A stretch of DNA of 50,698 nt from an uncultured Eubacteriales bacterium (GTDB lineage: Bacteria; Bacillota; Clostridia; Christensenellales; CAG-917): positions 1 to 50,698 of the forward strand of contig ONYW01000008.1 of the NCBI GenBank assembly GCA_900322215.1, read 5' to 3'. Under the pieces are notes generated by a model, which saw only the letters and a program-made list of their open reading frames with translations, did not search any database and was not told the origin of the DNA. This document shows, one piece after another, positions 29,532 to 47,867 of the stretch. Each line of letters opens with the position of its first letter. Positions within the stretch are counted from its first letter, which is position 1. The position numbers and the translations under genes are program-made.

Positions 29532-29591
29532 CTTGGCGTTCTCCCTATCCACTTTCCACTTTTATTTTACCACTTTCACACGCCATTCACA

Positions 29592-30845: not shown

Positions 30846-31168
30846 AATTCCACCCCCTTTGCCATCATCGTGAACGCAATGTACGCAACGTTGTCTTCTT
30901 GCTTAAAGTCAACCGATACGCCCAGATCCGCAAGCGTCGCCGTCAAATCCCGTGAAAGCGGGGTTTTCAAGTTCTCGAAAGTCAACTTGAAAACGATGTT
31001 TTCTTTTGCCGACAAATTGACAAAAACTCCGTTTAGATACTCAAAATTGTCTTCTATCAGCGTCTCAAACGCTTCAAACGTCGCAAGCGCGATTTTTGCG
31101 GATATCTTGCAGTCCGCAATGCTTATAAACTCGCTCGGAATGCCCGAAAAATTGAGATAGTGCAACAC
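30842..31168 (-). CDS. C-terminal part of the 7TM sensor protein after an in-frame amber codon
   Basis: A GTG at 31168 would give 108 residues (VLHYLNFSGIPSEF...). The frame is the same as that of the upstream gene, separated only by TAG (31172-31174) and GAA. The sequence resembles the degenerate ATPase-like C-terminal part of 7TM sensor proteins, so this is more likely a detached domain than a separate gene. No good ribosome site precedes the GTG. Confidence 0.65.
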   Translation of the reverse strand: MLHYLNFSGIPSEFISIADCKISAKIALATFEAFETLIEDNFEYLNGVFVNLSAKENIVFKLTFENLKTPLSRDLTATLADLGVSVDFKQEDNVAYIAFTMMAKGVEL

Positions 31169-31171
31169 TTC

Positions 31172-32503
31172 CTATATGGACAAGCCAAGTTCGCCGATTT
31201 CAATCTCGTCCGCTTCTTCCGACATGAGCATAAGATTGGCATATCGCTTTATGTATGCGCCGAGAAGCAAGATTTTGCATCTGTACCTTTCTTTGAGCGT
31301 TGCGTCCTCCGACTCTCTCGCCGTTTCCGCCAAATGCTGTATGGATTGGGATTGCTTCCACGTGCGCTTTGCAATCGTGTCATACATAAGCGTTCTTTGC
31401 TCAATCTTGGTCTGCTTCTCTTTGAGTTCGTTTTGCAAACTCGTGAGTTCGACGTCTTCCGCCAATCCCTCCTTTGCTTCGGCAAGTTCGTCGTTTAGAC
31501 GGTCTATCTCCGTCATATCTTCTTGCCAAAATCCGAATCCGCCCGCAATAACCATCTTGTGAAGCACGGTGTGTTCTTCGATACGCGCACCGCTTTCAAG
31601 CGCAAATTGCTCCGCCGTCAACGGCTTTGCCAAATAGGAAGAATAGATGGGCGTGCCTTTTTTGTCCGTGATTTGCGCCGATATTGAGAAGTTTTGAAAG
31701 AGTTTGCCGTAATCGCGGTTGGTCGGAATAAGTCCAAGCAACATACAACATTCAAGCACCACCGCCGCAGTAAATATGTGAACTTCCGGAAACTCGACGA
31801 CAGAGTTGCCCGTCAAGAGCAAAACGTACATCACGACGCCCGCCGCAAACGGTATGAGCAAGATCCACGCGTTCTTTTTTGAACTCGATATGCTGCACTT
31901 TACGAGCATAATGACGATTGCGACGATTGAAAGCAAAAACTGCCATACGTAAACGACGTAGAATAGCCACCCGCGAGTGTAATCTCCGTCCCAATTCTCA
32001 AAATTCGGCTTGAACGCGAACGCCTGCTCGTGCAAATCGTTCGTCAAAACAAGCACCATCAAAACGAGCGTGATCGCAAAAGGTATATACCAAAGTTTCG
32101 GCACGCGCCTGTAATCTTTTGCCGCCACAAGCAACGATATGCAGAACAACAGCAAAGGAATCATCAATATCGGCACGTAATAAAGATACCACGCATGCCT
32201 CGCAAGTATTCCGATCTCGGACACCGCGCTGTATTTTATGCCCTGTATAACTATGAGCGCAAAAGCCATCCACGACAACGTCTTCATCATCACGGACAAC
32301 TTGCCCATCGGCGCAACTCTGTGCGAATAATAAAGAACAAGGCATACCGAAAGCACCAACGAGTATATCGTCGTAAAATTGCGCGTCGGGAATTTGTCAA
32401 TCATTCCGCTTATTATAGGAATGACAATTATTGCGAGCAACGCATAATAAACCGCGATCCGCAAAAGCGCAATCCATATTTCTTGCTTCTTCTGTGCCTT
32501 CAT
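31172..32503 (-). CDS. 7TM sensor histidine-kinase-like protein, interrupted by amber codon
   Basis: The 443-residue product has seven or eight membrane helices (residues ~12-265) of the histidine-kinase N-terminal 7TM type, a PAS-like stretch (FQNFSISAQITDKKGTPIYSS), and a coiled-coil dimerisation region (~335-435) with no obvious phospho-His. It stops at TAG where the sequence would otherwise continue into the 30842-31168 frame. The start at 32503 has AGGA upstream. It probably senses an envelope signal for the downstream kinase/regulator pair. Confidence 0.8.
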   Translation of the reverse strand: MKAQKKQEIWIALLRIAVYYALLAIIVIPIISGMIDKFPTRNFTTIYSLVLSVCLVLYYSHRVAPMGKLSVMMKTLSWMAFALIVIQGIKYSAVSEIGILARHAWYLYYVPILMIPLLLFCISLLVAAKDYRRVPKLWYIPFAITLVLMVLVLTNDLHEQAFAFKPNFENWDGDYTRGWLFYVVYVWQFLLSIVAIVIMLVKCSISSSKKNAWILLIPFAAGVVMYVLLLTGNSVVEFPEVHIFTAAVVLECCMLLGLIPTNRDYGKLFQNFSISAQITDKKGTPIYSSYLAKPLTAEQFALESGARIEEHTVLHKMVIAGGFGFWQEDMTEIDRLNDELAEAKEGLAEDVELTSLQNELKEKQTKIEQRTLMYDTIAKRTWKQSQSIQHLAETARESEDATLKERYRCKILLLGAYIKRYANLMLMSEEADEIEIGELGLSI

Positions 32504-32659: not shown

Positions 32660-34861
32660 TCACTTTTCTATCGTAAGTACGTTCTTGCCGTCTTTGCGGG
32701 CGTAGGTGACGGACTTTGAAAGTTTTTTGACGATGGTGATGCCAAAGCCGCCTATCGAGACGCCAGACAGGTCGTCGCCCGACGATATATACTTGTCGTC
32801 CGAGGCAAGCGGATTAAATTCCGCCCCGTTGGACACTATGACAAGCACTATATTGCCGTTTTCCTCTCTTGCCTCAACGTCGATGACAAAGTCGTCAGTC
32901 TTTTCGTATGAGATGAGGTTGTTGAGGAGTTCGTCGAAGATGATGTCAAACTCCTGCAACTTTTGCGTGTCAATGTTTGCAAAATGCGCGTTGAAAGCGG
33001 TGGTGAGTTGCTCTATCGCGTCAAAACTCGGGTCGCTAAAATGCACTGAAAACGGTTTGTTGTCCTGCAATTCAAAGGACAAGAGTGTGACGTCGTCAAA
33101 TGCCTCGCGCTCGCCTACGAACGCACTCAAATCGTGCTTGATTTGAGAGAGCATTTCTTCCTGCGACAAGCCTTTTGCACGGCTTAGAGACTGCTCTATC
33201 CTTTCATAGCCGAACTCTTCTCTCTCGTCGTTTATAGACTCGTTGAGTCCGTCCGTAAAGAGGAAAAGGCGTTTGCCTTTCAGATTTGTCTTTTCCACCG
33301 CGAAATTAAAGCCTTTCAGCCCGCCGAGGACAAAGTTTGGATTTATATCCATTCGAGTCACTCCATCTTGCGAGAGGATATACGGTCTTTCGTGCCCTGC
33401 GCTCACGCACTCCATATCGCCTGTTTCAAGGTCCACAACACCGACAAACGCCGTGACAAACATATTGGTCTTGTTGTTTTCAATAAGTTCGTCGTTGACT
33501 TCGCCGATCGCCTGTTTGAGGTCGTGTATCGCCTGCATCTTCGTCTTGATAAGCCCCTTTGCCTTCATCATAAAGAGCGCGGCAGGAACGCCTTTGCCTG
33601 TCACGTCCGCGATAACGAGCACTAAATGGGTTTTGTCGACAAAATAGTGGTCGTAGAAGTCTCCGCCGACTTCCTTTGCGGGAGTCATTGACGCTACTAT
33701 TTGCGAGGCGTCGGTCTCGAACTTCGTCGACGGCAACTCTTCCTCTTGGATTTGCGAAGCGATAGAGAGTTCCGCACTCAGGTGCGCCCTCTCCTGCGCG
33801 TCCTTTTCAAGTTTGTCCGTATAGTTGATGATCTCCTGTTCGAGCGTTACGAACGACTTAGACAGGTCGCCGAGTTCGTCCTCCGCGTTGACTTTTGGAT
33901 CTATGACTTCAAGTTTGTCGCCGTCGAGAGCCTTCTTTGTGAAAGACTTCGTCGTGTTTGAAAGTTTTGTGACGTTTTTGATGATGACAAAATGCACGAG
34001 AATCGCATACAACACCACAAGTACGACAGTCGCTATCGAGAGCGCGATAAGTTCGGTAATCAAGAACGACTTCGTCGCCTCGTTTATCGTGTCTTCGTTG
34101 TATTCGATAAAGACCGTTACGAGATATATGTCGTCCAAAACGCCCGGCTCGACCTCATCGTGCATATACAGGTCAAAGCACAGCGAGGTGCGGCCGTTTG
34201 TCAAAAACTCCGCATATCCGTCTTTCTGCTCCCTTACGCCGTCACCCGCCTGAAGTTCGTAAAAACTGCCGGGGAGAAGCGTATTCGCCTGCACTTTTTC
34301 GTCGAGTTGATATTCGGCATCCACCACGTAAACGAGCCTGTTGCGCTCTTCGTCCTTGAAAGCCAAATACGTGTTTTGCACTCCCTGCGTCGCGTATGCG
34401 GTCGATAGCATTGCGGACAGTTGATAATAGTTGGACTTCCACCTGAGGTTGTAGAGCGAACTGCTCATTCCGTTGTTGTTCGGATACAGTTGCCCGTACT
34501 TCTTTTGAGAATAATAGAGATATTTCTTTTCAAGCGTCGTGAGTGAGGCGATATACTCGGGGCGATCGGCATATTTTGAATTAATATAATCGTCCATATT
34601 CTCGTCGTTCGGATCCGCTTCGTAGGCATTCTTGATGTAGTCCCACAGTTCGTCTATCTCGTTCTCTATCGTTTCGCTCGAAAGATTGTCCTTGTACTCG
34701 TCAACGCAATGACTGAGCGACGTATATAGGTTGTCTTTTATTCTCTCTTTGTAGATGAAAAAGCTGAACAAAAACGCCGCGACCATAAGCAGGGCTGACA
34801 GTCCTGCTCCGATGAGAAGAATTTTGGCTTGTATGTTGAGCCTGATTTTTTTGTTTTTCAT
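32660..34861 (-). CDS. SpoIIE/RsbU-type serine phosphatase with C-terminal ATPase domain
   Basis: The 733-residue membrane protein has one N-terminal helix (13-35), an extracytoplasmic sensor region (~36-270), a second helix (~272-295), a HAMP-like linker, and a coiled coil (~345-370). A PP2C/SpoIIE phosphatase domain follows with metal-binding VGGDFYDHYFVD and ADVTGKGVPAALFM (~390-440), FTDGLNES and DDVTLL. From ~610 it carries a GHKL ATPase domain (FDELLNNLISY, GGFGITIVKKL) like the anti-sigma kinase RsbW. The phosphatase would remove the phosphate from the adjacent STAS protein. Its start overlaps the STAS gene by 4 nt. Confidence 0.92.
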   Translation of the reverse strand: MKNKKIRLNIQAKILLIGAGLSALLMVAAFLFSFFIYKERIKDNLYTSLSHCVDEYKDNLSSETIENEIDELWDYIKNAYEADPNDENMDDYINSKYADRPEYIASLTTLEKKYLYYSQKKYGQLYPNNNGMSSSLYNLRWKSNYYQLSAMLSTAYATQGVQNTYLAFKDEERNRLVYVVDAEYQLDEKVQANTLLPGSFYELQAGDGVREQKDGYAEFLTNGRTSLCFDLYMHDEVEPGVLDDIYLVTVFIEYNEDTINEATKSFLITELIALSIATVVLVVLYAILVHFVIIKNVTKLSNTTKSFTKKALDGDKLEVIDPKVNAEDELGDLSKSFVTLEQEIINYTDKLEKDAQERAHLSAELSIASQIQEEELPSTKFETDASQIVASMTPAKEVGGDFYDHYFVDKTHLVLVIADVTGKGVPAALFMMKAKGLIKTKMQAIHDLKQAIGEVNDELIENNKTNMFVTAFVGVVDLETGDMECVSAGHERPYILSQDGVTRMDINPNFVLGGLKGFNFAVEKTNLKGKRLFLFTDGLNESINDEREEFGYERIEQSLSRAKGLSQEEMLSQIKHDLSAFVGEREAFDDVTLLSFELQDNKPFSVHFSDPSFDAIEQLTTAFNAHFANIDTQKLQEFDIIFDELLNNLISYEKTDDFVIDVEAREENGNIVLVIVSNGAEFNPLASDDKYISSGDDLSGVSIGGFGITIVKKLSKSVTYARKDGKNVLTIEK

Positions 34862-35154
34862 TTTATAGTAAGTGCATTGATAAAGCCCGTGACGCTGAAA
34901 ATCTCGCGCACGACGGCGTTTATATTGTGAATTTCAAGTGCTTTTGACTTGCCGTCGAGTTCGCGCTTTAAGGCAAGCAATACGCGAAGACCTGCCGAGG
35001 AGATGTACTCTACGTTTGAAAAGTCGATGACGACGAGGTCTTCCGTGATTTCCTCCGCCTTTATCGCCTTGTCAAATTCTACCGACGTGACAGTGTCGAG
35101 TCTTCCGCTGACAAAAACATTCATTGATTCACCATGTTCAATTTTGACTTCCAT
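34858..35154 (-). CDS. STAS-domain anti-sigma factor antagonist
   Basis: The 98-residue protein is a single STAS domain with VIDFSNVEYISSAGLRVLL near residues 43-61, where the conserved Ser is phosphorylated by RsbW-type kinases. It overlaps the MATE-kinase gene by 17 nt and the phosphatase gene by 4 nt, so kinase, switch protein and phosphatase are made together. No sigma factor lies nearby, so its target may be something other than transcription. Confidence 0.93.
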   Translation of the reverse strand: MEVKIEHGESMNVFVSGRLDTVTSVEFDKAIKAEEITEDLVVIDFSNVEYISSAGLRVLLALKRELDGKSKALEIHNINAVVREIFSVTGFINALTIK

Positions 35155-36910
35155 TTGTTTGTTCTCCTAATTTTATTGTAAATATTGTATTGTTGAGGTT
35201 TAGCACCCTCATATAGTTCATTTCGTCGCAGAGTCCAGCGATAAGCGCGATACCGCCCGTCAAATACTCCTCGTCCTTGTCGCACTCGTATTTCGTCGGA
35301 TCGAACGGCATACCGTCGTCGCGTATTCGAAGAAGCAGTTCGTTCTCGCTGATTTTGAGGTTGACATCGATATAGTTCGCGCTTTGGCGCTTGTAGCCGT
35401 AGTGTACGATGTTGGAGATGATCTCCTCGCACGCAAGTCCGATAACCTGCGAATTTCGGTTTTCTACACCGTGCTCGTTCGCGAAGCTAGAGATCTCCTT
35501 GGACACGACGACCGCGTTTTCAAGTTTGTTCTCGACGGATATGTCGAACGTGTTGACGTCCTGCTTTTCAAGCATAAATATTCCCTTATACTGCTTATGC
35601 TTGATTTCGTAGATAAATATGAACGCATACGTGATGAGAACAACCGCAAATTCGGTTATAACGCGCGCAAGCGCATAGCCGAACAGCCCGTTCGTCTTGA
35701 GCAGTACGAGGGTGAGCGGTATGATAAACACCGCCTCGCGTAGGACAACCGTAAGGATCGACGGCACGTTCTTTTCGATAGCGGGATAGTAGTTTGTCGA
35801 AAACTTGTTAATTTCAAGCGGTATCGCCGCAATGACGTATATGCGCAAGATAAACTCCGCTTGTCTCATGCCGTCTCCCGCGTCGTTGAAGCCGAACACT
35901 ATCGCATAGCCCTTCGGCCATATCAGTATGACCGTCATAATAAGCGCGGTGACAATGATGTTGATGATATAGATCTTCCTTATCACCGACCTGAGCGAAT
36001 ATATGTCCTTTTCGCCGTATAGCACCCCGCATATCGTCGGAATAAGCCCGAGAATACCGCCCGAGAACAGGTCGAACACAAAGATAAGGTTGCTGACAAG
36101 TCCGAAGATTATGAGGTCTACCGCCTCCGTTATCATACGGCTGAACACCACGTTTATGACAAACGACTGCACCGCGAGAAGCAGGAAGGTAAGCGCAGTG
36201 GACACCGAGGCTTTGAGCGCGCCGAAAAATTCCTTTTTCATACCCTTCAAGTTGAAAGTGAAATGGAGCATACGCTTTTTCGACTTCGCATAGAAGATTA
36301 TCGTCACAAAGCCGAACAAATAGCCGACGGGAAGCGAGAGAGCCGCGCCGTATGCGCCGAGGTTGAACACCTTGATAAAGAGTATCTCCACCCCTACTTT
36401 CACCGCGTTTGCGATGATGTAGAACACAGCCGAGAGTTTCGGGTTGTTGTCCGTAGCGATAAAAGTCGCGAGCATGATAGCGATCATAAGGATCGGATCC
36501 GTCGCCATATACACGAGTATATATTGGTAGGACTCGTCGATGAGCGACTCCGCAAACAGCGTCGCGAGCGGGCGCGCTACAAACGGAGAGATGACAGCAA
36601 ACACGCAGGATATCGCCGTACCGACGATCAATGCGCCCGAAAACACCTTGTTCGCCTGCTCGATGTTTCTCTTTCCGAGCAGGTTGCCGATAGCGATAGA
36701 TCCGCCCGTCGCAAGCGCAAAGCCGGGGATTTGTATTATATACAAAACGGGCATGACGAGCGAGTTCGCCGTGAGCGAATCCGAGCCTATCATGTTGCCG
36801 ATGATGATGCTGTCAAGCAGCGAGCCGAATTGCATCGCAAATATCATCAGCACGGACGGCAACAGATATTGGTAGAATTTTTTGTCAATGAGTTTCGCGT
36901 TTCTTTCCAT
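35138..36910 (-). CDS. MATE transporter fused to an RsbW-like ATPase domain
   Basis: Residues 1-~445 are a 12-helix MATE exporter (FGSLLDSIIIGNMIG near the start, ATGGSIAIGNLLGK, ATFIATDNN). Residues ~455-590 are a soluble GHKL ATPase domain with N box GLACEEIISNIVHYG, LRIRDDGMPFDP and GGIALI. The domain matches the anti-sigma kinase type rather than the sensor kinase type, as there is no dimerisation His region. The ATG overlaps the NRPS stop (TGATG). Export of the NRPS product is inferred from position; coupling of export to the kinase is inferred from the fusion. Confidence 0.9.
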   Translation of the reverse strand: MERNAKLIDKKFYQYLLPSVLMIFAMQFGSLLDSIIIGNMIGSDSLTANSLVMPVLYIIQIPGFALATGGSIAIGNLLGKRNIEQANKVFSGALIVGTAISCVFAVISPFVARPLATLFAESLIDESYQYILVYMATDPILMIAIMLATFIATDNNPKLSAVFYIIANAVKVGVEILFIKVFNLGAYGAALSLPVGYLFGFVTIIFYAKSKKRMLHFTFNLKGMKKEFFGALKASVSTALTFLLLAVQSFVINVVFSRMITEAVDLIIFGLVSNLIFVFDLFSGGILGLIPTICGVLYGEKDIYSLRSVIRKIYIINIIVTALIMTVILIWPKGYAIVFGFNDAGDGMRQAEFILRIYVIAAIPLEINKFSTNYYPAIEKNVPSILTVVLREAVFIIPLTLVLLKTNGLFGYALARVITEFAVVLITYAFIFIYEIKHKQYKGIFMLEKQDVNTFDISVENKLENAVVVSKEISSFANEHGVENRNSQVIGLACEEIISNIVHYGYKRQSANYIDVNLKISENELLLRIRDDGMPFDPTKYECDKDEEYLTGGIALIAGLCDEMNYMRVLNLNNTIFTIKLGEQTNGSQN

Positions 36911-39900
36911 CAGATGTCCGTCCTTTCAAAGAAGTTGAGGCTTGCGAGCGAGTTTATCGCCTGTTCGAGGTATTTATCGTCCGTTATCGGCCACTTGTAG
37001 CCGAGGTGATAGAGCGCCTTCACCGTAAACTCGTTGTCCGTGAGTATGAACGAGTGCGTGTGACCGTCGCTCGCCGCGTAGTTGATGAGCGAGGAGACGA
37101 GCATATTCTTCGTTTCGTCCGCCATCATGACTTTCATTGCCTCGAAGAACTCCGCGTCGCTTACGACGTCGATGCCGTAGCCGAGTTTGTTCATAACGGC
37201 GATGATGTCGCCCATTTGCACGAGGTGCGAGTTCGCGGCGTGGAAAACCGTGTATTTCTTGTCCGTTTGCGCGAGGAGCAAGATAGCCTTTGTCACCTCG
37301 TCGATAGGCGTAAAGTCAACCGTCGCGTCCATAGAACCGACTGGGAATTTGTGGAGCGTCGCATAGCCCTTTAAGTCGCGCATAAAGCCGTTCGTTATGG
37401 AGTTCGCCTGGAACTCGCCGTCGCTCTCGCGGCTCATAAGGTTGCCGACTCTTATCACCTTGCCGTCAAGTCCGTCGTCCACTCCCTCCAAAATCGCCTT
37501 TTCGGCATTGAACTTCGAGTGTACGTATTTGTTGGAGATGTCTTGACCGATGTCAAGCATATTCTCTTTCATTCTGAAACTCTCTTCAAATTTGCCGTCG
37601 ATATTCTCGCCTGCGACGGAGAGAGTCGAGATTTGAATGAGTCTGATATTTCTCGCCTTTGCGATTTCTATGAGGTTTTTGACGCCGCCCACGTTGACGC
37701 GCTCAATGCTGTCGTCAACCGCAAAATGTTTGACGAGTGCGGCGCAGTTGATTATCGTGTCAATTTGCACATTCGCAAGTTTATCCGCAAGATTTGGCTC
37801 GGTAATATCCGATTCTACGATAGTTACGAGTCTTTCGACGTCGTCGTCGAGCGGAGAATCGAAGTAGTAGGCAAGCAGTCCTTTCAGCCTCGTTTTTGCG
37901 TCTACGTTCTTGGACGCGCGCACGAGCGCTACCACCTGCGCTTCTTGTCTCAAAAGTTCGCGGAGTACGTGTATGCCGAGGAAACCGGTGACGCCCGTCA
38001 CCATAACTTTTCCGAGAGGACGGGATTTTGCGATTCCGTCGACAAACTTGACCGTGTTGTAGTCAAGCGAATTTACGACGACGGTCTCCTCTTCTTCCTC
38101 CTGCGCTTGCGCCACGGAACTTGCCTGGTTTATATGCTTTTCGAGTTCAAGGACGGTCGGATAGTCAAAGACGTCCTTGTAGGCGACAGGCACGTTCTCT
38201 TGCAATGCGAGCATCGCTATCTTCGACGCGGAGAGCGACGTGCCTCCGAGGTCGAAGAAGTCCTCGTCCACGCCGACTTCGCTTGCGCCGAGCGCCTTTT
38301 GGAAGATACGGACGAGTTTCTTTTGAAGTTCCGTCTTCGCGGCTTTGTGTTCGCCCTTCTCCTCTTGTTGCACCTCGGGCTCAGGCAATGCCTTCTTGTC
38401 TATCTTTCCGCTCGCGGTGAGAGGCATCTTGTCAAGTTGCATCATCACTTTCGGGATCATATACGGAGTGAGCGACTTCGCCATGTGCTTTGTGAGGTCG
38501 TCCTTGTCCACTTCGTACGGAGCGGTAAAGTACGCGGCGAGATAGTCGCCGTCCACCTTGTTCTGCTTGACGACGATGATGCTGCGCGAAATGTCCTTGT
38601 AGGAGTTGAGCACCTTCTCTATCTCGTCAAGTTCGACGCGAAGTCCGCGCAGTTTGACTTGGTTGTCAAGTCTTCCGAAAAACTCTACGTTGCCCTCCGG
38701 GTTGTATCTTGCGAGGTCTCCGCTTCTGTATGCGCGCTTGCCGTCTATCTCGATAAACTTCTCTTTGGTCTTGTCCTCCATGCCGAGGTATCCGATACCA
38801 ACGCACTCGCCCGCGAGCGTCAAGTCGCCGATGGCGTCTATCGGAAGTACATGCCCCGCTTGGTCAAGAATATACACCGCCGTATTTGCAAGCGGTTTGC
38901 CAATCGTGACGTATTCGTCCGTGACTTTGTGATACGTACACGTGATAGTCGTCTCGGTCGGGCCGTAGCCGTTGTAGATGTCCGCCGTAACGCCGAGATC
39001 TTTGAGTTTTTGGCAAAGTTCCTGCGGGACGGCTTCCGCGCCCATATCGAGCACTTTGAAGTTTTTGAGCGCCTCGACAAACGGCTTCATATCAATAAAG
39101 TTGGACACGAACGACGGAGTCATAAACATAATGTTTACGCCCTCTCGCGTGAGCGTTTCGGCGAGGAGCATCGGGTTTTCGATCTCCTCTTCCGTCGCAA
39201 TGACGACCGTATAGCCGTGCGAAAGCGGGACGCATTCCTCTTGCAAGGACGCGTCAAACGCAAACGACGCAAACGCGCAGGCGATCGCTCCGCCCTCTAT
39301 ACCGCGATAAAGCGCCGTTCCGCGGTTCGTGCCGTCAACGACGTAGTTGACGAGGTTGCGGTGAGAGATCATAACTCCTTTCGGCTTGCCCGTCGAACCC
39401 GACGTATAAATGATGTAGCAAAGCGAATCCTGCGGAATGTCCACGTTCGGATTTTCCGTCTTGTCCGTCGCGAGTGCGGATTCCACGGTCACGACTTTCA
39501 CCTTTGACTTTGCTATGAGGTCTTTCTTCTCCTCCGCGATAGCCTCGGTCGTAACAAGCAATTTTGCCGACGAGTCGGAGATGATATAGTCTATTCTGTC
39601 GTCGGGATATTTCGGATCGACGGGCACGAACGCACCGCCCGACTTGATTATGCCTTGTCTTACGACGTATGCGTCGCGCACTCTCGGCATCATCATGACG
39701 ACTTTGTCCGCAACCTTGACGCCCTCGGCGATGAGAGCATGCGCCACCTTGTTGCAGTTTTCGTTGAACTCCTTGTAGGTGTATCTTCCGCCCTTGCCGA
39801 CGACTGCGATCTTGTCGGGAACGAGTTCCGCTTGACGCTCGACAAGTTTGTTGAAGGAGACGTTTTCAAGTTTTTCTTCCGTCTTGTTAAATTCAGCATA

Positions 39901-42900
39901 GAGTTGTCTATCCTTTTCTGGCAGCGTGTTTATGTCTCTTATGCGCTTCTTTTCGGCGAGTTCTTCAAGCACGAGTTCAAACAGCCTCTCGAAGGATTCT
40001 ATAAACGCCTCGCCGTAGACGGATTCGTCCCACTCGACGTGAGAACGGAACACTCCGTTTTCGAGGAACACGTCGATAGAAAACGCGCTCTTCGGCGTGT
40101 CGGACTCGATAAGTACGGACTCCACTTTGTGCTCGCCTATGCGGTCGAATGTGAAATTGTCGCCTTGATATGCAAACATGATGTCCGCGGTCACGTCAAA
40201 CTCGTTTGCGATATCCGCAAAGGAATAGAGGTCGTTTGCCTGCAAGTTTTCAAGTTCTTCTTTCATCTCTTGAAGTTTGTCAAGCACGAGTTCGTCCTCT
40301 TTGTATTTGACGTAAACCGGCAACGTCTTGACGAGCATAGAGACGGTGTTCGCAAGTTTTGACGACTTTCTTCCGTTGTAAATCGTCGTGTAAAGGCTGT
40401 CCGTCTTGTAGAGGTATTTTGAAAGCGTAAACGCAAACGCAAAGTTGAAATATGCGTTCATCGTGAGTTTTGACTCGTCGACGAATTTTGCAAGTTTTTG
40501 AGAGTCAACGGAGAGTGCAAAATCTTTGTATGCGAGTTTTGACTCCTTTGCGACCTTCAAATCCTTCTTGACGACGTACTCGCCGTCCATATCTTTGAGC
40601 AAATCGACGTAGTATGCCTTTGCTTTGTCAAACTTGTCCGTCGCAAGGTTTTGTCTCTCTTTGAGCGCGACCTCGAAACCGCTTATCATCTCTCTGTCAG
40701 GCGTCTCGCCTGCGTACGCTTTGCCGAGGTCGGTGAGCATGATAGCCTCGCTCGTGCCGTCGCAAATGATATGGTGGAAATCAAGGAAGAGATACGAACC
40801 GCCCCTTGTGGTGTATATTTCCGCACGATAAAGCGGCGATCCGAGCATTACGAACGGTCTCACTATCGTTTCGGTGTTTATCTCGCCCACCGTGTATTCT
40901 CTGACGGTTGCGGGAGCGGAATCCATGCGCTTTGCGCGTATGTCGCCGTCGCCGTTCATCGTGAGAATCGTCTTGACGTACGGGTGAGCGTCTATCATCT
41001 GTTCAAGTGCGGATTTGAGCCTTGCAAGGTCTATATCGTCGGGCAACTTGAAAAGAATAGGAATGTTGTAGTTGGTTGTGTTCGGTTTTGCGGCGCATTC
41101 GACAAAGATACCCTCTTGCGTCTTTGTGATCGGGTATTCGTCGAGGACTTCAAACTTCTCCTCTTCCTGCTTTTCGCCAAGCCATGCCGCAAGCGCGCGG
41201 ACGGTGTTGTTTTGTTTGAGATCGCTGTTGTCGACGTCTTTGCCGAACTTCTTTGACAGCAAAATCGCAAGGCGAATTGACGATACGCTCGTAAGCCCTG
41301 CCTCGTATATATCCGTCGTCACGCCGAAGGTGTCGTTGCCGAGGATGTTTTTGAGTATGTCGTAGACCGCCTCTTCCTCAGGCGTTGACGGCATCACCTT
41401 TTCCGCCGTTCTCACCTTTGGTTCGGGAAGCGCGCGTTTGTTGACTTTTTGGTTTTGGTTGAGAGGAATACTCTCTATCTGCATCGTGTAGGCAGGCACC
41501 ATATACGGCGGTTTTTTAGAGGCGATAAATGCGTTCAGTTTGTCAACGTCTATCTCCTCGTCCGCAACGATATACGCGCATATATACTTGACGCCCGCGG
41601 GATCCGTAAAGTCCTTGACGGTCGCGTCCTTTATGCCCTCGAATTCCCTGATGACTTTTTCGACTTCGGAGAGTTCGATACGGAAGCCGCGGATCTTGAC
41701 TTGTCCGTCCTTTCTGCCGATAAAGTCTATCGTGCCGTCCGCAAGGTATCGCACGACGTCGCCCGTCTTATACAGGCGTTTGAAGTTCTCGTCCTTGTCA
41801 AACGGATTTGAAAGGAATGCCTTTTTGTTCTCCTCATCGCGGTTTAAGTAGCCTCTTGCGACCTGCGGACCCGAGATGTAGAGTTCGCCTTGACATAGGA
41901 CAGGCAGTCTCTTCATATCCTTGTCGAGAATGTACGACTTATAGTCGCAGTTGATCTTGCCGATAGGCACGCGGTAATACATTTTGTCCACAAGGTATTC
42001 CGTGCAGTACACCGTGCCCTCCGTAGGACCATAGCCGTTGAAGAGTTTATAGTTTTTCGGCGGTTCGATAGGAACGAGTTTTTCTCCGCCGACCATGATA
42101 TATTTGAGCGTCTTTGCCTCTATCATTTCGACGAACTGTCTGCCGACCTGCGTCGTGAGCATTGCGTGCGTTATGCCGTTTTCGTTGAAATACTCGCCGA
42201 GTTTTATGAGGTCAAGGCGGAGTTCGTTCGGAATGACATACACGCACCCGCCGTGCGTAAGCGTCGGATAGAGGTCGAGCATATCGGCGTCAAAGCCGTA
42301 GGACGCATATGCCGAAACTCTCGACTTTTCGTCCACTTCATGCTCTTTCGCATGGTAGGACGCAAACGCGTTTATGTTGCCGTGCTCTATCATAACTCCC
42401 TTCGGCACGCCCGTAGAGCCGGACGTGTAGAGCATTATGAAAAGATCTGTCGGTTCAATCTTGACGTCGACGGGAGAAGAATCTTTGAGAGAGGCGATTT
42501 CGTCCGTATACAGCACCTCGCCTGCAAAGTCCGCAAGCAAGTCGCCGAGGTCTCTGTCCTTTATGAGAGCCTTTGCGTCCGCGTCTTTCACCATAAATTC
42601 AAGTCGCTCGACAGGGTAACTCGGATCGAGCGGTTGATACGCCGCTCCCGTCTTGATGACGCCGAGGCTGGCTATCACGATAAACTCGGATTTATTGATG
42701 AGGACGGACACTTTGTCCTCTTTCTTTATGCCTTTAGAGATGAGGTAGTTCGCAACTTTGTTTGACAGTTCGTCCACCTGCTTATAGGTGTACTTCCTGT
42801 CCTTAAAGACGACCGCCGGGTTGTCGGGGTATTTTTGCACCATCTTTTTGAAGGAGTCGACAACGTTGCCCTCGGCGTTTATCATGGAGAGGTCTACAAC

Positions 42901-44136
42901 GTTGAAAGAGTCGAGGAGTTTTTCTTCATCCTTGCTCACGAGATTTACGTCGGAGAGTTTCTCCTTTGCCAAAAACTCGGCAAGCACCGTATCATAGACT
43001 TTTATGAGATGCTCGATCGTGCCGTCTTCGTAGAGGTCGGATCTATACTCCGCCCAAACGAAATATTTGCCGTTATCGCGGTGGAGTTCTATTGCAAGAT
43101 TCTCTTTGCCGTCCTTGCGTTCAAGTTGGTCGACATAGAGTTCTTTGCCCTCGAACTCGGTCTTATAAAAATAATCGCCTTGATATGCGAACATAACTCC
43201 GCCGTTTATGCCGAGGTCCTTTGCGATGTCGGAGAAAGGATAAATGAGATTTTGCGTGCTTGACGCAAGTTCTTCACTCGCCTCTTTCACATACTCTTCC
43301 ACCGTGTCCCTATGCTCCAAATAGAGCGGGAACGTCTTGACGAACATACCCATACTGTGAGCGAGTTCCTTGTTCCTGCCGTTGTTGACGGTGAGGAAGA
43401 GCGATTTGTCGTCCATATTGATTTTTGAGAGAAGAAAACCAAATGCCGAGAGGAAAAACGCCGACGTCTTCACGCCGTATTTTGCCGTAAACTTCTTGAC
43501 CGCTTCGCCGTTTACCGAGAGATTCGACTTAAACACCTTAAACTTCTCTTCGCCGTCCGACTTGTCGAATATGAGGCTCGAATCCGTTTCGGGATCGCGG
43601 ATAGTTCTTTCAAAATATTCCTTTGCAGACTTGTATTCGCGGCTTAACAGTCTTCTCTCTTCCGCGAGCGCGAATTCGTTTGCGGAATACACTTCCTTGT
43701 ATGCCTTTCCTCCCTCGTAGACTCTCAAAACTTCGTCGATAAACAACTTTATAGACGTGCCGTCAAAGATGATGTGATGGAAGTCGTACACAAAGTGATA
43801 CTCGCCTTTTACAAGATACAGGTGAAGCCTGAAAAGGTGATTTTCGAGCATCTCGAACGGCGGAGACTGCACGTCGAGTTTTGAGACTTCTTCAACCTGC
43901 AAATCTATATTCTTCGTGCGGATTTTTTTGTAAATCCTGCCGTCGTCACCTTGAAAAAGCACGGTGAATAGATACGGGTGCGCTTCAAACACCTTTTCGA
44001 CCGCCGCCGAAAAACGCTTTACGTCAAGTTTTTTGCCGAGGTTCACGACGTTTGTGAGGTTGTATGCGTCGGTCGGTTTCAAGCATGAAACGTAAATCCC
44101 TTCTTCCGTCTTTGAAAGTGGAAAATAATCTCTCAT
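36910..44136 (-). CDS. Dimodular nonribosomal peptide synthetase, C-A-T-C-A-T-reductase
   Basis: The 2408 residues contain in order: condensation domain 1 (HHIIFDG at 120-126), adenylation domain 1 (YTSGSTGVPKG near 570, NGYGPTEGTVY), carrier 1 (AGLTSVSSIRL near 947), condensation 2 (HHIICDG near 1119), adenylation 2 (YTSGSTGKPKG near 1575), carrier 2 (LGGTSLSASKI near 1962) and a terminal NAD(P)-dependent reductase (VTGVTGFLGIHV near 2045, YVHSKFNAEK). All core motifs are intact. Hand alignment to GrsA gives pocket residues DALMIVGVY-K and DAQFLMGIT-K; specificity is uncertain, probably hydrophobic. The starter condensation domain suggests N-acylation, and the reductase suggests release as an aldehyde that may cyclise to a pyrazinone, as known for gut Clostridia enzymes of this layout. 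Confidence 0.95.
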   Translation of the reverse strand: MRDYFPLSKTEEGIYVSCLKPTDAYNLTNVVNLGKKLDVKRFSAAVEKVFEAHPYLFTVLFQGDDGRIYKKIRTKNIDLQVEEVSKLDVQSPPFEMLENHLFRLHLYLVKGEYHFVYDFHHIIFDGTSIKLFIDEVLRVYEGGKAYKEVYSANEFALAEERRLLSREYKSAKEYFERTIRDPETDSSLIFDKSDGEEKFKVFKSNLSVNGEAVKKFTAKYGVKTSAFFLSAFGFLLSKINMDDKSLFLTVNNGRNKELAHSMGMFVKTFPLYLEHRDTVEEYVKEASEELASSTQNLIYPFSDIAKDLGINGGVMFAYQGDYFYKTEFEGKELYVDQLERKDGKENLAIELHRDNGKYFVWAEYRSDLYEDGTIEHLIKVYDTVLAEFLAKEKLSDVNLVSKDEEKLLDSFNVVDLSMINAEGNVVDSFKKMVQKYPDNPAVVFKDRKYTYKQVDELSNKVANYLISKGIKKEDKVSVLINKSEFIVIASLGVIKTGAAYQPLDPSYPVERLEFMVKDADAKALIKDRDLGDLLADFAGEVLYTDEIASLKDSSPVDVKIEPTDLFIMLYTSGSTGVPKGVMIEHGNINAFASYHAKEHEVDEKSRVSAYASYGFDADMLDLYPTLTHGGCVYVIPNELRLDLIKLGEYFNENGITHAMLTTQVGRQFVEMIEAKTLKYIMVGGEKLVPIEPPKNYKLFNGYGPTEGTVYCTEYLVDKMYYRVPIGKINCDYKSYILDKDMKRLPVLCQGELYISGPQVARGYLNRDEENKKAFLSNPFDKDENFKRLYKTGDVVRYLADGTIDFIGRKDGQVKIRGFRIELSEVEKVIREFEGIKDATVKDFTDPAGVKYICAYIVADEEIDVDKLNAFIASKKPPYMVPAYTMQIESIPLNQNQKVNKRALPEPKVRTAEKVMPSTPEEEAVYDILKNILGNDTFGVTTDIYEAGLTSVSSIRLAILLSKKFGKDVDNSDLKQNNTVRALAAWLGEKQEEEKFEVLDEYPITKTQEGIFVECAAKPNTTNYNIPILFKLPDDIDLARLKSALEQMIDAHPYVKTILTMNGDGDIRAKRMDSAPATVREYTVGEINTETIVRPFVMLGSPLYRAEIYTTRGGSYLFLDFHHIICDGTSEAIMLTDLGKAYAGETPDREMISGFEVALKERQNLATDKFDKAKAYYVDLLKDMDGEYVVKKDLKVAKESKLAYKDFALSVDSQKLAKFVDESKLTMNAYFNFAFAFTLSKYLYKTDSLYTTIYNGRKSSKLANTVSMLVKTLPVYVKYKEDELVLDKLQEMKEELENLQANDLYSFADIANEFDVTADIMFAYQGDNFTFDRIGEHKVESVLIESDTPKSAFSIDVFLENGVFRSHVEWDESVYGEAFIESFERLFELVLEELAEKKRIRDINTLPEKDRQLYAEFNKTEEKLENVSFNKLVERQAELVPDKIAVVGKGGRYTYKEFNENCNKVAHALIAEGVKVADKVVMMMPRVRDAYVVRQGIIKSGGAFVPVDPKYPDDRIDYIISDSSAKLLVTTEAIAEEKKDLIAKSKVKVVTVESALATDKTENPNVDIPQDSLCYIIYTSGSTGKPKGVMISHRNLVNYVVDGTNRGTALYRGIEGGAIACAFASFAFDASLQEECVPLSHGYTVVIATEEEIENPMLLAETLTREGVNIMFMTPSFVSNFIDMKPFVEALKNFKVLDMGAEAVPQELCQKLKDLGVTADIYNGYGPTETTITCTYHKVTDEYVTIGKPLANTAVYILDQAGHVLPIDAIGDLTLAGECVGIGYLGMEDKTKEKFIEIDGKRAYRSGDLARYNPEGNVEFFGRLDNQVKLRGLRVELDEIEKVLNSYKDISRSIIVVKQNKVDGDYLAAYFTAPYEVDKDDLTKHMAKSLTPYMIPKVMMQLDKMPLTASGKIDKKALPEPEVQQEEKGEHKAAKTELQKKLVRIFQKALGASEVGVDEDFFDLGGTSLSASKIAMLALQENVPVAYKDVFDYPTVLELEKHINQASSVAQAQEEEEETVVVNSLDYNTVKFVDGIAKSRPLGKVMVTGVTGFLGIHVLRELLRQEAQVVALVRASKNVDAKTRLKGLLAYYFDSPLDDDVERLVTIVESDITEPNLADKLANVQIDTIINCAALVKHFAVDDSIERVNVGGVKNLIEIAKARNIRLIQISTLSVAGENIDGKFEESFRMKENMLDIGQDISNKYVHSKFNAEKAILEGVDDGLDGKVIRVGNLMSRESDGEFQANSITNGFMRDLKGYATLHKFPVGSMDATVDFTPIDEVTKAILLLAQTDKKYTVFHAANSHLVQMGDIIAVMNKLGYGIDVVSDAEFFEAMKVMMADETKNMLVSSLINYAASDGHTHSFILTDNEFTVKALYHLGYKWPITDDKYLEQAINSLASLNFFERTDI

Positions 44137-44765
44137 TTTATCTTCTCCTTTTTTATCAATATATCAAAAGGCTCTTCGCCTTTTTTTGTCACGGATATGG
44201 CAAAGTTTTCAAACTCCGTAAGGCGTGAAAAATATTTTTCGCCCTTAAACTCCTTGCACCCCGCAAGCGGGAGCGCGGGAATATCTTTCACTCTTCCGTC
44301 AAGTCCCTCTCCGTCCGCCTTTGCAAGGCTCTCTTTTGAAGTCCACACCTTGAAAAAATCTTTGTCCGCATTGATAGTCCAGTATTCCTCGTCGGATGAA
44401 ACGTATCTTTTCAAATCTTCGTCCGCCTTTCGGACGTTTTCCACGTCTACTCCAACGTCTCGGTTTGCAAGCGCCAAGACGACTGCACCGTCGCAGTGGG
44501 ATACGTTGAAGAACTTCCCGTCGGCAACCGGCTTTCCGCTTTCCGTCAAAGTCCATTCTCCAACGTATTTGCGTTTGAGATAAGCGGACGCGAGGTGCGC
44601 GACTTTGTCGCTTTCTTTGACAAATCTGTCCGCATATTCCCTGTCCTTTGCCGTCACGTATGCAAGTGAGGCGAGATCCAAGTAGGCTGTGCGCGACGTA
44701 TCGGCGAATATAATCGTCACCCGTTCGTTGCTTTGAGAATTTTGCTTTTCGGTTATTTTGCCCAT
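44133..44765 (-). CDS. Sfp-type 4'-phosphopantetheinyl transferase
   Basis: The 210-residue enzyme would load the phosphopantetheine arm onto both NRPS carrier domains. Motifs: GKPVADGKFFNVSHCDGAV near 80-97, GVDVENVR (metal Asp, Glu) near 110, and FFKVWTSKESLAKADG near 138-153. Its stop overlaps the NRPS start by 4 nt. The ATG at 44765 has no good ribosome site but overlaps the end of a possible small upstream frame, so translation may be coupled. A GTG 16 codons later is an alternative. Confidence 0.93.
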   Translation of the reverse strand: MGKITEKQNSQSNERVTIIFADTSRTAYLDLASLAYVTAKDREYADRFVKESDKVAHLASAYLKRKYVGEWTLTESGKPVADGKFFNVSHCDGAVVLALANRDVGVDVENVRKADEDLKRYVSSDEEYWTINADKDFFKVWTSKESLAKADGEGLDGRVKDIPALPLAGCKEFKGEKYFSRLTEFENFAISVTKKGEEPFDILIKKEKIK

Positions 44766-44873
44766 ATTTGCGTCGGCGGATCCGTTTGTCCGCGATAATC
44801 GTCCAAGTATATCGTCGGTTTTCGGGAAATGATGTCGCCGTCATTGAGAAGGCTTTTCTCAAACGGTTTTTCA

Positions 44874-44986
44874 TTTTTTCCTCACGCTCCTGCGCGCAAC
44901 TCGCGGGCGCGCCTTATGCGCAGGATTTTGCTCTTAGCAAAACTAATATACAAAAAAATTGTACAACCAAACAGGCGATTTGTCAA
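44874..44986 (-). promoter_or_regulatory. Promoter and leader of the NRPS operon
   Basis: Minus strand TTGACA (44986-44981), 17-bp spacer, TACAAT (44963-44958), a near-perfect sigma-A promoter. The leader has TTTTGCT/AGCAAAA and CCTGCGC/GCGCAGG hairpins. The latter ends just before GTGAGGA, a strong ribosome site in front of an ATG at 44874 that is not the PPTase start. Confidence 0.75.
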
Positions 44987-45148: not shown

Positions 45149-45325
45149 TTATTTGTTGTCTTCCGACTTTGTCGGGAGTTCGTGACAGCAAGATGAGCAA
45201 TGCGCGCAGTCGCAACCGCAGTCACACGTCGGCTTCCCTTTTGCCTTTTTCACGATGAAGGAAACGACTACGCCTACAACTATTGCCGCACACGCCACTA
45301 TAAGAATTATTTCCCACGCGCCCAT
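45149..45325 (-). CDS. FeoB-associated Cys-rich membrane protein
   Basis: A 58-residue protein: MGAWEIILIVACAAIVVGVVVSFIV is one membrane helix, followed by a basic stretch and a Cys-rich tail (CDCGCDCAHCSSCCH) likely to bind metal. This is the known small partner gene that follows feoB in many Bacillota. It overlaps the feoB 3' end by 19 nt and has a GGAGG site. Confidence 0.9.
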   Translation of the reverse strand: MGAWEIILIVACAAIVVGVVVSFIVKKAKGKPTCDCGCDCAHCSSCCHELPTKSEDNK

Positions 45326-47634
45326 AATTTTTTCCTCCAGTCTTTGCCGTATTTGTTATAGAGCACGATGCCCGTCACGACGAGTGCGATAACGAAGAGC
45401 CAGATGAAGAGCGTCCACCACCAAGAACCGATGGTATAGATCATTGCGCCGATGCAGTAGGATGAAGCGAGCCAGAACAGGAGTGTTCCGCCATAACGCT
45501 TTTTGCTGCCGAGTTCCGCCTTTGCAGTACCGACTGCCGCGAAGCACGGGATAGTCGTCATATTGAACGCGATGAACGCGATAAGTGCAGGAACCGTGAT
45601 TCCGGTCGCCATAATCATGGACTGAACTGCGTCGATGCCGTCTTCCGCGTCTATTGCAAGGTCGCCAAAGTCAATACCCGCTACCGCTGAAAGGCAAGCC
45701 GCAAGAGTTGCGAACGTTGCAATAACGTTTTCCTTTGCGATAAGACCTGCGACAACTGCGACGACAAACACCCAGCCGTACGTTCCGAGTTGGCTACCGA
45801 ATCCGAGAGGAGTAAAGAGCGGTTGTACGAATTGAGAGATGTTTGCAAGAATACTCTCGTTGATCTCTTCGTCCTCGAGGAAGTGCCAGCTGAATGAGAA
45901 GTGCGAAAGCAACCAAATGACGATCGTGGACGCAAGGATAATTGTGAACGCCTTCTTGACGAAGTGTTTCGTCTTGTCCCAAAGGTGCGCCATAAGGTTT
46001 TTGAATTGCGGGGCGTGATAGGCAGGAAGTTCCATAATGAACGGAGGCGTCTCGCCTTTGAGCGTCGTGCTTCTCATAAGGAGTACGGACGCGATTGCCG
46101 CAACTATACCGAGTATGTACATGCCAAAGGTGATGGCGTCGGCGTTGCCGATTCCGAAGTATGCGACGATAGCGCCTGCGACTGCCGTAAGAATAGGAAG
46201 TTTTGCACCGCAGGAGAAGAACGGTATGACGCGGATGGTCGCCGTTCTTTCCTTCTCGTCCGCGAGCGTTCTCGTGTTGATCATTGCGGGAACGGAGCAA
46301 CCGAAGCCCATGATCATCGGCATAAACGCACGTCCGGAGAGTCCGAAACGACGGAACATTCTGTCAAGGATAAATGCGATACGCGCCATATATCCGCTGT
46401 CTTCAAGGATCGAGAAGAAGAGGAACAGCGTGAGGATCGGAGGCAAGAACGAAAGAACTGCCGCGAGACCGTCAAAGATACCGTTGTTGATGAGTCCGAT
46501 CGCCCACGGAGCCATAGAACTCTCCTCTACGAGACCGCCGAGCCAGCCGAAGAATTGACCGACGATGAGATCGTTCCATACGTTGTTGATAAACACACCC
46601 GGCGATGCGAGCGCGCCGTCATAAAGCGTCGACAATATGAGTACGCCTGCATTCAAAGGCTCGCCAGCTTCATTCAAAAGCCCAAGGTCTTCGAGTGTTG
46701 GGAGCTTGAAAATTGCGCCGAGATACAAGAAGTCTTCGCCAAACGTGAGGTGGAAGATTGCAAACAAAATGACGACGAAGATCGGAATACCCCAAATCTT
46801 GTGCGTGAGCACCTTGTCCGCCTTGTCGGACTTTGTCATTTTGAGAGTGTCTTTTTCTTTCTTCGTGACCGCTTGAGCAAAGTTTTTGGAGATATATTGA
46901 TATCTTCCGTCTGCGATAAGCGCTTCGAAGTCGTCGCCAAAGGTCTCGTCCTCAAAAGTCTCCTTAAATTCGTCGACCATAGGCGCGGTCTCTTTGTGCA
47001 TTTCAACTTCGATAGAGTCGTTTTCTACAAGTTTGATGGCATGGAAGAGCGGATCTTGGACGTTTTGACCTTTGAGAGCGATCTTTACGTCGCCGATGAG
47101 ATGAGAGAGCGCGCTATCAGCAAGAACTGTCGTTCCCTCTCGTGCTTGACCGCTCACTTCGTATGCCTTTTCCATGAGTTCTTTAAGACCTGTCTCTTTG
47201 AGTGCGGAGATTGCGACGACAGGCACGCCGAGTTTCTCTTCAAGCGCCTTTGCGTCTATCTTGTCCCCTGCCTTTTCAACCGCGTCGATCATGTTGAGTG
47301 CGACGACGACAGGAACGTCAATTTCAAGAATTTGAGTGGTTAGATACAGGTTTCTCTCGAGGTTTGTCGCGTCAACGATGTTGATTACGCAGTCAGGTTT
47401 TTCATCGAGAATGTAGTTCCTCGCAATGACTTCTTCCGGTGTGTACGGAGAAAGTGAGTAGATGCCCGGAAGGTCAACGATCGCAACGGGATTCGGAGTC
47501 TTTTTGTAGACGCCGTCTCTCTTGTCAACCGTAACGCCCGGCCAGTTGCCTACGTGTGCAGTAGAACCCGTAAGACTGTTAAACAGCGTCGTTTTGCCGC
47601 AGTTCGGGTTGCCGGCTAATGCAAATTTTTTCAT
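45307..47634 (-). CDS. feoB: Ferrous iron transport protein B
   Basis: The 775-residue membrane transporter takes up Fe(II). The N-terminal G domain (residues 1-~165) shows GNPNCGKTTLFN, DLPGIYSLSPYT, and NMID; a GDI-like linker follows to ~270, then two Gate domains and core helices (IPFFSCGAKLPI near 475; further gate near 690). I chose 47634 because GGAGG precedes it and the ATG overlaps the feoA stop (ATGA). An ATG 9 codons upstream (MCCDGGCGQ) inside feoA is possible. Confidence 0.95.
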   Translation of the reverse strand: MKKFALAGNPNCGKTTLFNSLTGSTAHVGNWPGVTVDKRDGVYKKTPNPVAIVDLPGIYSLSPYTPEEVIARNYILDEKPDCVINIVDATNLERNLYLTTQILEIDVPVVVALNMIDAVEKAGDKIDAKALEEKLGVPVVAISALKETGLKELMEKAYEVSGQAREGTTVLADSALSHLIGDVKIALKGQNVQDPLFHAIKLVENDSIEVEMHKETAPMVDEFKETFEDETFGDDFEALIADGRYQYISKNFAQAVTKKEKDTLKMTKSDKADKVLTHKIWGIPIFVVILFAIFHLTFGEDFLYLGAIFKLPTLEDLGLLNEAGEPLNAGVLILSTLYDGALASPGVFINNVWNDLIVGQFFGWLGGLVEESSMAPWAIGLINNGIFDGLAAVLSFLPPILTLFLFFSILEDSGYMARIAFILDRMFRRFGLSGRAFMPMIMGFGCSVPAMINTRTLADEKERTATIRVIPFFSCGAKLPILTAVAGAIVAYFGIGNADAITFGMYILGIVAAIASVLLMRSTTLKGETPPFIMELPAYHAPQFKNLMAHLWDKTKHFVKKAFTIILASTIVIWLLSHFSFSWHFLEDEEINESILANISQFVQPLFTPLGFGSQLGTYGWVFVVAVVAGLIAKENVIATFATLAACLSAVAGIDFGDLAIDAEDGIDAVQSMIMATGITVPALIAFIAFNMTTIPCFAAVGTAKAELGSKKRYGGTLLFWLASSYCIGAMIYTIGSWWWTLFIWLFVIALVVTGIVLYNKYGKDWRKKLWARGK

Positions 47635-47867
47635 TTGTCCGCAACCTCCGTCACAACACATACCGCTTCGTTCTTGCGGAGCGTGAGTTCATAACCACGC
47701 AAGGTTATCTCGATAGGATCGCCGAGCGGCGCTTTCTTTCTCATATAGACTTCCGCGCCCGGGGTGATGCCCATGTCGAACAACCTCCTTTTAATTTTCC
47801 CGTCAGCGACGACGCGCTTTACCCTGCCCGTCTCACCGATCGAGAATTGATCAAGAGTCTTTTCCAT
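47631..47867 (-). CDS. feoA: Ferrous iron transport protein A (second copy)
   Basis: The 78-residue SH3-like FeoA has RRLFDMGITPGAEVYMRKKAPLGDPIEITLRGYELTLRKNEA, the family core. It is thought to support FeoB at the membrane. AAGGAG precedes the ATG. It has its own upstream region with a palindromic operator (47907-47922), separated from the first feoA gene by repeats F and G. Confidence 0.93.
   Translation of the reverse strand: MEKTLDQFSIGETGRVKRVVADGKIKRRLFDMGITPGAEVYMRKKAPLGDPIEITLRGYELTLRKNEAVCVVTEVADK

Follow-up and report, generated by a model that had tools for sequence, protein, structure and literature searches.

A partner-switching set that may be wired into the peptide exporter of a clostridial nonribosomal peptide synthetase operon

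Introduction

Partner switches are known above all for the release of sigma factors. The locus considered here, a five-gene operon of an uncultured Eubacteriales bacterium, encodes the parts of such a switch with the kinase fused to a transporter. It lies in a stretch of 50,698 nucleotides (contig ONYW01000008.1 of assembly GCA_900322215.1), called the window in the following, and joins a 4'-phosphopantetheinyl transferase (PPTase), a nonribosomal peptide synthetase (NRPS), a MATE exporter that ends in an RsbW-type ATPase, a STAS protein and a SpoIIE-type phosphatase. In a kinase-transporter fusion, the sequence itself suggests the target, and such a fusion is a directly testable case of post-translational export control.

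The closest described systems are RsbU-RsbV-RsbW and SpoIIE-SpoIIAA-SpoIIAB of Bacillus, with which the window operon shares the three protein families, the STAS serine, the N-box and G1 box of the kinase and the PP2C aspartates of the phosphatase. It differs from them in the fusion of the kinase to a MATE exporter, in the lack of a sigma factor in the operon, and in the second ATPase domain of the phosphatase, which is mostly G1-degenerate in the relatives.

BtrU-BtrV-BtrW of Bordetella likewise consists of partner-switch proteins without the classical sigma logic. BtrU and BtrW act on a secretion process, a precedent for a partner switch on secretion, although BtrV and BtrW are treated there as separate partners and a type III secretion system takes the place of the MATE exporter as target (PMC8256260). 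The same source describes several STAS proteins without a known target, and SLC26/SulP transporters, which resemble the present case in carrying a partner-switch-type domain on a transporter, except that STAS rather than the kinase is the fused part (PMC8256260). The SiaA-SiaB-SiaC-SiaD system of Pseudomonas aeruginosa, made up of a PP2C phosphatase, a kinase, an anti-sigma-antagonist-like target and a diguanylate cyclase, provides in SiaABC a precedent for a non-sigma output; it differs from the window operon in its threonine acceptor and in its cyclase (PMC7647112). Against the NCBIfam model of SiaA, the window phosphatase scores 68.9 bits, far from the cut-off of 700.

Among open-licence articles of PubMed Central, searched by title and the start of the abstract, no work on a MATE-RsbW-type fusion was found, which is not proof of absence. 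As far as could be seen, the protein families are known singly, and what is new is how they are arranged, how far this arrangement has spread, and how the two ATPase domains share the work.

Results

A conserved partner-switch set with the kinase on the exporter

The five genes occupy 32660..44765 on the minus strand, and their successive overlaps of 4, 1, 17 and 4 nt are exactly those given in the original prediction. Its domain assignments are borne out as well, all Pfam matches of the operon exceeding the curated cut-offs (Table 1); for the exporter, the MatE match falls in two stretches and compares with a cut-off of 24.9.

The ATPase domain of the exporter carries the residues expected of a kinase of the RsbW type. 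E496, N500, D531 and G533 are invariant in 43/43 complete copies (the window and 42 relatives, the alignment omitting the cut copy L086 and the distant L041), and a profile of the domain matches the PDB structures of RsbW (6m36) and SpoIIAB (1th8), its N-box and G1 box aligning with theirs. The last 142 codons, which form the kinase region, have a ratio of nonsynonymous to synonymous substitution rates (dN/dS) of 0.05-0.15 in 8 of 11 relative pairs (one of them near saturation, the remaining three saturated), compared with 0.03-0.15 for the MATE half in the nine computable pairs. In the pair L065/L068, which has no STAS gene in cis, the value for the kinase region is 0.06. The exporter kinase region is under purifying selection.

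The other two components are conserved too. Ser53 of the STAS protein is found in all 36 aligned proteins (the window, the 34 ordered loci described below, and L057). The phosphatase aspartates 419, 537 and 589 are present in 35/35 members (the window and 34 relatives; the second SpoIIE of L061 and a control from contig 26 of the window's genome were left out of the alignment), Asp401 in 34/35 with one position masked, and Asp590 in 34/35 with one Asn. Judged from their sequences, kinase, STAS protein and phosphatase have intact catalytic residues and form a complete, conserved partner-switch set, as had been predicted.

The ATPase domain of the phosphatase has followed another course. Its N-box Glu/Asn is kept in 35/35 proteins, and the G1 Asp is found in only 10/35, having been lost in the other 25, with Ser in the window protein. 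In GHKL ATPases, the G1 Asp is required for adenine binding. Since the phosphatase's domain has mostly lost this ATP-binding residue, the exporter is read as carrying the working kinase, and its ATPase domain is apparently the competent kinase of the operon. A PDB search with the phosphatase ATPase sequence gave one weak match (E 0.67) that looks like chance. The putative sensor region of the window phosphatase matched no Pfam family, and a HAMP domain was found in 3 of 27 members.

Two phosphatase genes among the relatives (L053:4595-6727 and L054:12057-14192) are mosaics. Their sensor halves differ by a synonymous rate (dS) of 0.03, whereas the phosphatase and ATPase domains reach 1.1 and 2.6, and the output half in L053 resembles that in L072. 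The output module of the phosphatase thus seems, from these comparisons, to have been swapped among relatives.

Table 1. Positions in the window of the operon's genes, domains and sites
Feature	Position	Strand	Basis or detail
Promoter-like site TTGACA-17-TACAAT, 5' of the first gene	44958..44986	-	11/12 consensus matches
PPTase, 210 aa	44133..44765	-	Pfam ACPS, 33.0 bits
NRPS, 2408 aa, C-A-T-C-A-T-R	36910..44136	-	Pfam domains
NAD(P)-dependent reductase domain ending the NRPS, residues 2046-2285	37282..38001	-	Pfam; predicted aldehyde release
MATE exporter with C-terminal RsbW-type ATPase, 590 aa	35138..36910	-	MatE 85.3 bits, HATPase_c_2 53.6 bits
RsbW-type HATPase_c_2 domain of the exporter	35207..35533	-	E496, N500 (N-box), D531, G533 (G1 box)
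STAS protein, 98 aa	34858..35154	-	Pfam STAS, 49.2 bits
Codon of STAS Ser53, predicted phosphate acceptor, within Y-I-S-S-A-G	34996..34998	-	Ser in the window and 35 loci
Membrane SpoIIE/PP2C phosphatase with C-terminal HATPase_c_2, 733 aa	32660..34861	-	SpoIIE 143.7 bits, HATPase_c_2 40.5 bits
Predicted extracytoplasmic sensor region of the phosphatase	34052..34765	-	Between hydrophobic segments 14-32 and 271-289; no Pfam family
SpoIIE phosphatase domain	33071..33634	-	Asp419, 537, 589
Second HATPase_c_2 domain, on the phosphatase	32666..33016	-	N-box kept; G1 Asp replaced (S-N-G)

Conservation of the operon among close relatives

Among 61 genomes searched, one of them the window's own, five of the same genus or family have a close full-length fusion, preceded by NRPS sequence and followed by STAS and SpoIIE genes in 5/5 cases; a sixth, distant fusion (L041, 21% identity) has neither NRPS nor STAS/SpoIIE genes. 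The main scan, which applied two patterns taken from the MATE N-terminus to 84,980 species genomes, yielded 43 loci, among them the five close records (L047, L048, L053, L054, L072).

The C-terminal ATPase is fused to the MATE protein in 43/43 of these relatives (the copy in L086 being cut by the contig end), in line with the fusion originally predicted. As both search patterns derive from the MATE N-terminus, this frequency is not biased by the kinase domain. Nor is the fusion an artefact of assembly, since 43 separate genome records share this architecture. An NRPS adjoins the MATE-kinase gene in 42/43 loci, and the order NRPS, MATE-kinase, STAS, SpoIIE is kept in 34/43. No extra gene stands between NRPS and SpoIIE in 33 of these 34 cis operons; in L076, about 2.7 kb with two genes is inserted before the STAS gene. 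The MATE-STAS junction ranges from a 29-nt overlap to a 12-nt gap in 32/33 measured loci.

Among the loci outside this order, L083 and L086 end with the contig, and L057, on a short contig, has the STAS gene followed by other genes. Neither STAS nor SpoIIE is found in cis in the other six (L064, L065, L068, L080, L084, L087), and in each of their genomes a STAS gene and a SpoIIE-ATPase gene are immediate neighbours at another place. These STAS proteins share 51-72% identity with the nearest operon STAS, versus 27-35% with the STAS-APH protein of the window's genome, which served as control, and by this measure the trans STAS-SpoIIE pairs are closest to the operon pairs. In five of the six, NRPS and MATE-kinase remain together and STAS-SpoIIE lies apart; the genome of L087 (G066) has an NRPS-STAS-SpoIIE operon without a MATE gene (L135), and its MATE-kinase gene is elsewhere. 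The original prediction had asked whether the fusion always sits with NRPS, STAS and SpoIIE genes. In the close family, the association largely stands, with 34/43 loci in cis, six more in trans and 42/43 with an NRPS; outside the family, it is mixed.

The 43 records are filed under Clostridia, Clostridiales, Christensenella, Lachnospiraceae, Erysipelotrichaceae, Bacilli or Bacillales. Ten of their titles name rumen, omasum or abomasum, and 15 more carry the isolate name RUG, which we take to be a rumen series. Found in ordered form in the window plus 34 further species records and in split form in another six, the system bears on how rumen and gut bacteria meter a probably reactive peptide.

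Fusions outside the close family

A wider search covered 391 genomes of the class at E 1e-20; its results refer to the matches listed, so that the fusion counts are a minimum. Besides the window, 21 matches reach position 578 or beyond, of which 19 were fetched with flanks; two G375 matches beginning at 363-365 were left out, a shorter match (L155) was added, and L041 was reused. Seven of the 19 fusions are NRPS-linked, and 13 (counting L041) are not.

Of the 13 fusions that lack an NRPS, eight have a SpoIIE or STAS gene no more than one gene away (L144, L145, L146, L147, L148, L149, L152, L154), and two more have one within 5 kb (L143, L151). Chance adjacency is unlikely, since SpoIIE matches number only 0-5 and STAS matches 1-6 per genome in the 12 genomes concerned. 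The cases are partly dependent, as L145, L147 and L148 group together, and so do L152 and L154. In a quick tree, the NRPS-linked fusions and L087 fall on one side and the 13 others opposite; this tree has long branches, no bootstrap, and a midpoint root as drawn. Given that 8/13 non-NRPS fusions adjoin SpoIIE/STAS genes, the fusion seems to be a feature of partner switching in general, and NRPS linkage that of one lineage.

Kinase decay was also observed. The N-box Asn is lost in L142, in a genome without a STAS match at 1e-9 (G428), and in L150, in a genome without SpoIIE and with one partial STAS match (G396). In an NRPS-linked MATE protein of another genus (L155:8936-10672, the same gene as L113), the ATPase has decayed beyond Pfam recognition, N-box and G1 box being gone, and the flanks as fetched hold no STAS and no SpoIIE gene. 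The ATPase domain of L112 is decayed too. The genomes with such decayed domains, G082 and G117, still hold STAS genes elsewhere.

One Clostridia family (L145:6626-11542, also L147 and L148) shows a recurring locus with a MATE-kinase gene, a SpoIIE phosphatase, one or two genes that are acetyltransferase-like where scanned (L145, L147), and a stand-alone RsbW-type ATPase. From this gene content, the locus is possibly a second system of the same design with another cargo.

The NRPS and its predicted product

In Pfam terms, the NRPS contains two condensation (C), two adenylation (A) and two PP-binding (thiolation, T) domains and one NAD_binding_4 reductase (R) domain. The HHxxxDG motif is intact in both C domains (residues 120 and 1121), and linear gramicidin synthetase A is the best PDB match of both A domains. 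The NRPSs of gut dipeptide aldehydes are bimodular and end with a reductase. By domain order, the window NRPS is likewise bimodular with a terminal reductase, and because of the order C-A-T-C-A-T-R and this reductase, a peptide aldehyde is its predicted product. The first C domain suggests, partly from general knowledge of such enzymes, that the product is N-acylated.

The closest NCBIfam models are AusA for the NRPS (1223.8 against a cut-off of 2500) and AusB for the PPTase (score under its cut-off). The AusA/AusB aureusimine pathway and the gut dipeptide aldehydes resemble the window operon in their bimodular NRPS with a terminal reductase and in having their own PPTase. AusA has the order A-T-C-A-T-R, without the first C domain (PMC12153313), so that the window NRPS differs by an additional N-terminal C domain. 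Gut bacteria are described as producers of dipeptide aldehydes, ruminopeptin among them (PMC12327764).

Discussion

Proposed mechanism

The arrangement may be read as a partner switch wired into a peptide exporter, in which the exporter would be the switched output, gated by the STAS protein. This reading is tentative, and we hold it with somewhat less than even confidence. The PPTase would prime the NRPS, whose reductase domain would release a short peptide as an aldehyde, to be exported by the MATE half. The C-terminal ATPase of the exporter would phosphorylate the STAS protein on Ser53, as the conserved catalytic residues and the analogy with RsbU/RsbV/RsbW suggest, and on the same basis the membrane phosphatase would sense an outside signal through its extracytoplasmic region and strip the phosphate from Ser53. 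Dephosphorylated STAS would dock on the ATPase domain of the exporter, as SpoIIAA does on SpoIIAB, and would set whether the exporter runs; this gating, its direction and the nature of the signal are all conjectural. The kinase would reset the STAS protein by phosphorylation, and the exporter would occupy the place held by the sigma factor in the classical switch. This reading has in its favour the constancy of the fusion and of the gene order, the related STAS-SpoIIE pairs in the six genomes without cis genes, the invariant catalytic residues, the purifying selection on the kinase region, the G1 Asp loss in most of the phosphatases, the SpoIIE and STAS neighbours of fusions that lack an NRPS, the loss of the N-box Asn in L142 and L150, the absence of a sigma factor from the operon and the sigma-A-like promoter.

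A broader form of the proposal can be offered with distinctly less than even confidence. STAS binding to the kinase built into the MATE protein would gate export directly, without transcription; the design would recur in distant Clostridia with other cargo and be joined to a peptide-aldehyde synthetase in rumen lineages, where an outside signal would set the release of preformed product.

Several observations weigh against an exporter gated in this way. Among the matches listed, only one of the seven further NRPS-linked fusions of other Clostridia (L140) has STAS and SpoIIE genes in cis; of the other six genomes, four have STAS genes elsewhere, and G404 and G428 have none at 1e-9. In G404 (L141), the kinase motifs are intact, yet no STAS protein is matched. 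Because of this genome and the single cis case, it must be concluded that the partner-switch parts are not obligate together everywhere. Three of the 13 non-NRPS fusions (L041, L150, L153) have no STAS or SpoIIE gene near. As regards the kinase itself, a single-sequence PDB search with the exporter ATPase domain found no relative at 0.1, a profile being needed, and the second glycine box is non-canonical (GGI, SGI, NGI or HGI). The main scan missed relatives lacking its two patterns. Lastly, given the genome's other sigma factors and its second partner switch, a sigma target in trans may exist.

Alternative explanations

The strongest alternative, which we nevertheless consider unlikely, makes the exporter the sensor: peptide flux or exposure would alter the tethered kinase, STAS phosphorylation would report it, and the STAS protein would have another target, such as a sigma/anti-sigma pair or operon transcription, giving product feedback. 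The tethering of the kinase to the exporter and the conservation of STAS Ser and phosphatase suit this model. So does the genome, with its other sigma factors, its stand-alone SpoIIAB/RsbW-type ATPase (preceded by a gene that is STAS-like by eye) and a sigma-SpoIIE-STAS locus. Additional SpoIIE, STAS or RsbW-type genes also adjoin the NRPS operon in L046, L061 and L084.

The sensor model has several findings against it. The original prediction that there is no sigma factor is right for the operon, according to the window's open reading frames and Pfam, and the genome's seven sigma-70 region-2 matches are all on other contigs. When the sequence flanking the 43 loci (at most 10 kb per side, shorter at contig ends in many loci) was compared with six sigma factors of the window's genome, a sigma-like piece was found in only L065 and L068, in both outside the operon and at the border of the sequence compared; the search covered sigma factors and no other effector kinds. 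The lack of any further gene from NRPS to SpoIIE in 33/34 cis operons also speaks against a sensing exporter, as does the failure of the neighbouring two-component genes of the window to recur as a set at related loci. The absence of a sigma factor from the operon, the predicted sensor region already present on the phosphatase, and a near-consensus promoter that looks like the housekeeping sigma-A type make the exporter somewhat likelier as output than as sensor, the sequence fitting an output role equally well or better.

An improbable alternative is a closed loop of the STAS protein with both ATPase domains inside the phosphatase/exporter pair, an inherited mixed-use module with a different regulatory output or none. 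The retention of the phosphatase's ATPase domain despite its frequent G1 Asp loss, the apparent exchange of the phosphatase and ATPase half in one relative pair, and the fusions without neighbours (L041, L150, L153) could be accounted for in this way. Purifying selection on the exporter kinase region and its invariant catalytic residues argue against it.

Least probable is that STAS protein and phosphatase regulate the synthetase or the PPTase, with the kinase placed on the exporter merely for a membrane position near the assembly line, since this fits the G066 operon, where the NRPS directly precedes STAS and SpoIIE and the MATE gene is absent (L135), but neither the MATE-kinase fusions that adjoin SpoIIE/STAS without any NRPS beside them nor the five genomes in which NRPS and MATE-kinase stay together and STAS-SpoIIE lies apart.

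Other partner-switch genes and neighbouring features

Contig 26 of the window's genome bears a separate locus (L042:1829-6327) with a sigma-70-like protein, a SpoIIE-ATPase, an HD-domain protein, and a STAS protein with an APH-type kinase domain fused to it. Proteins of this STAS-APH type, one of them extended by an ATPase domain, also stand beside the non-NRPS MATE-kinase fusions L144 and L146, and others beside the NRPS operon in L046 and L061.

The outer coordinate in the original prediction, 44986, turns out to be the first base of the promoter-like site. A promoter scan gave two sites in the stretch 5' of the PPTase gene, against a mean of 1.0 in shuffled sequence; taken by itself, such a scan is weak evidence. 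An open stretch of 42 residues (44753-44884), located between the promoter and the PPTase gene, ends over the PPTase start. It was rejected as a leader peptide, having no start codon and no convincing relative in the fetched loci (best E 0.8).

Downstream, a same-strand set at 28893-32503 starts 156 nt past the SpoIIE gene and encodes a 7TM sensor-like protein in which no kinase domain was recognised, a 108-aa protein of unknown kind, a protein whose HATPase match is weak, and a LuxR-type regulator, which gives the impression of a histidine kinase broken up into separate genes. These two-component genes were considered as members of the system and rejected for want of recurrence as a set; lone regulator-like matches were found in L071 and L088. 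On the other side, upstream of the operon, lies FeoB (45307-47661).

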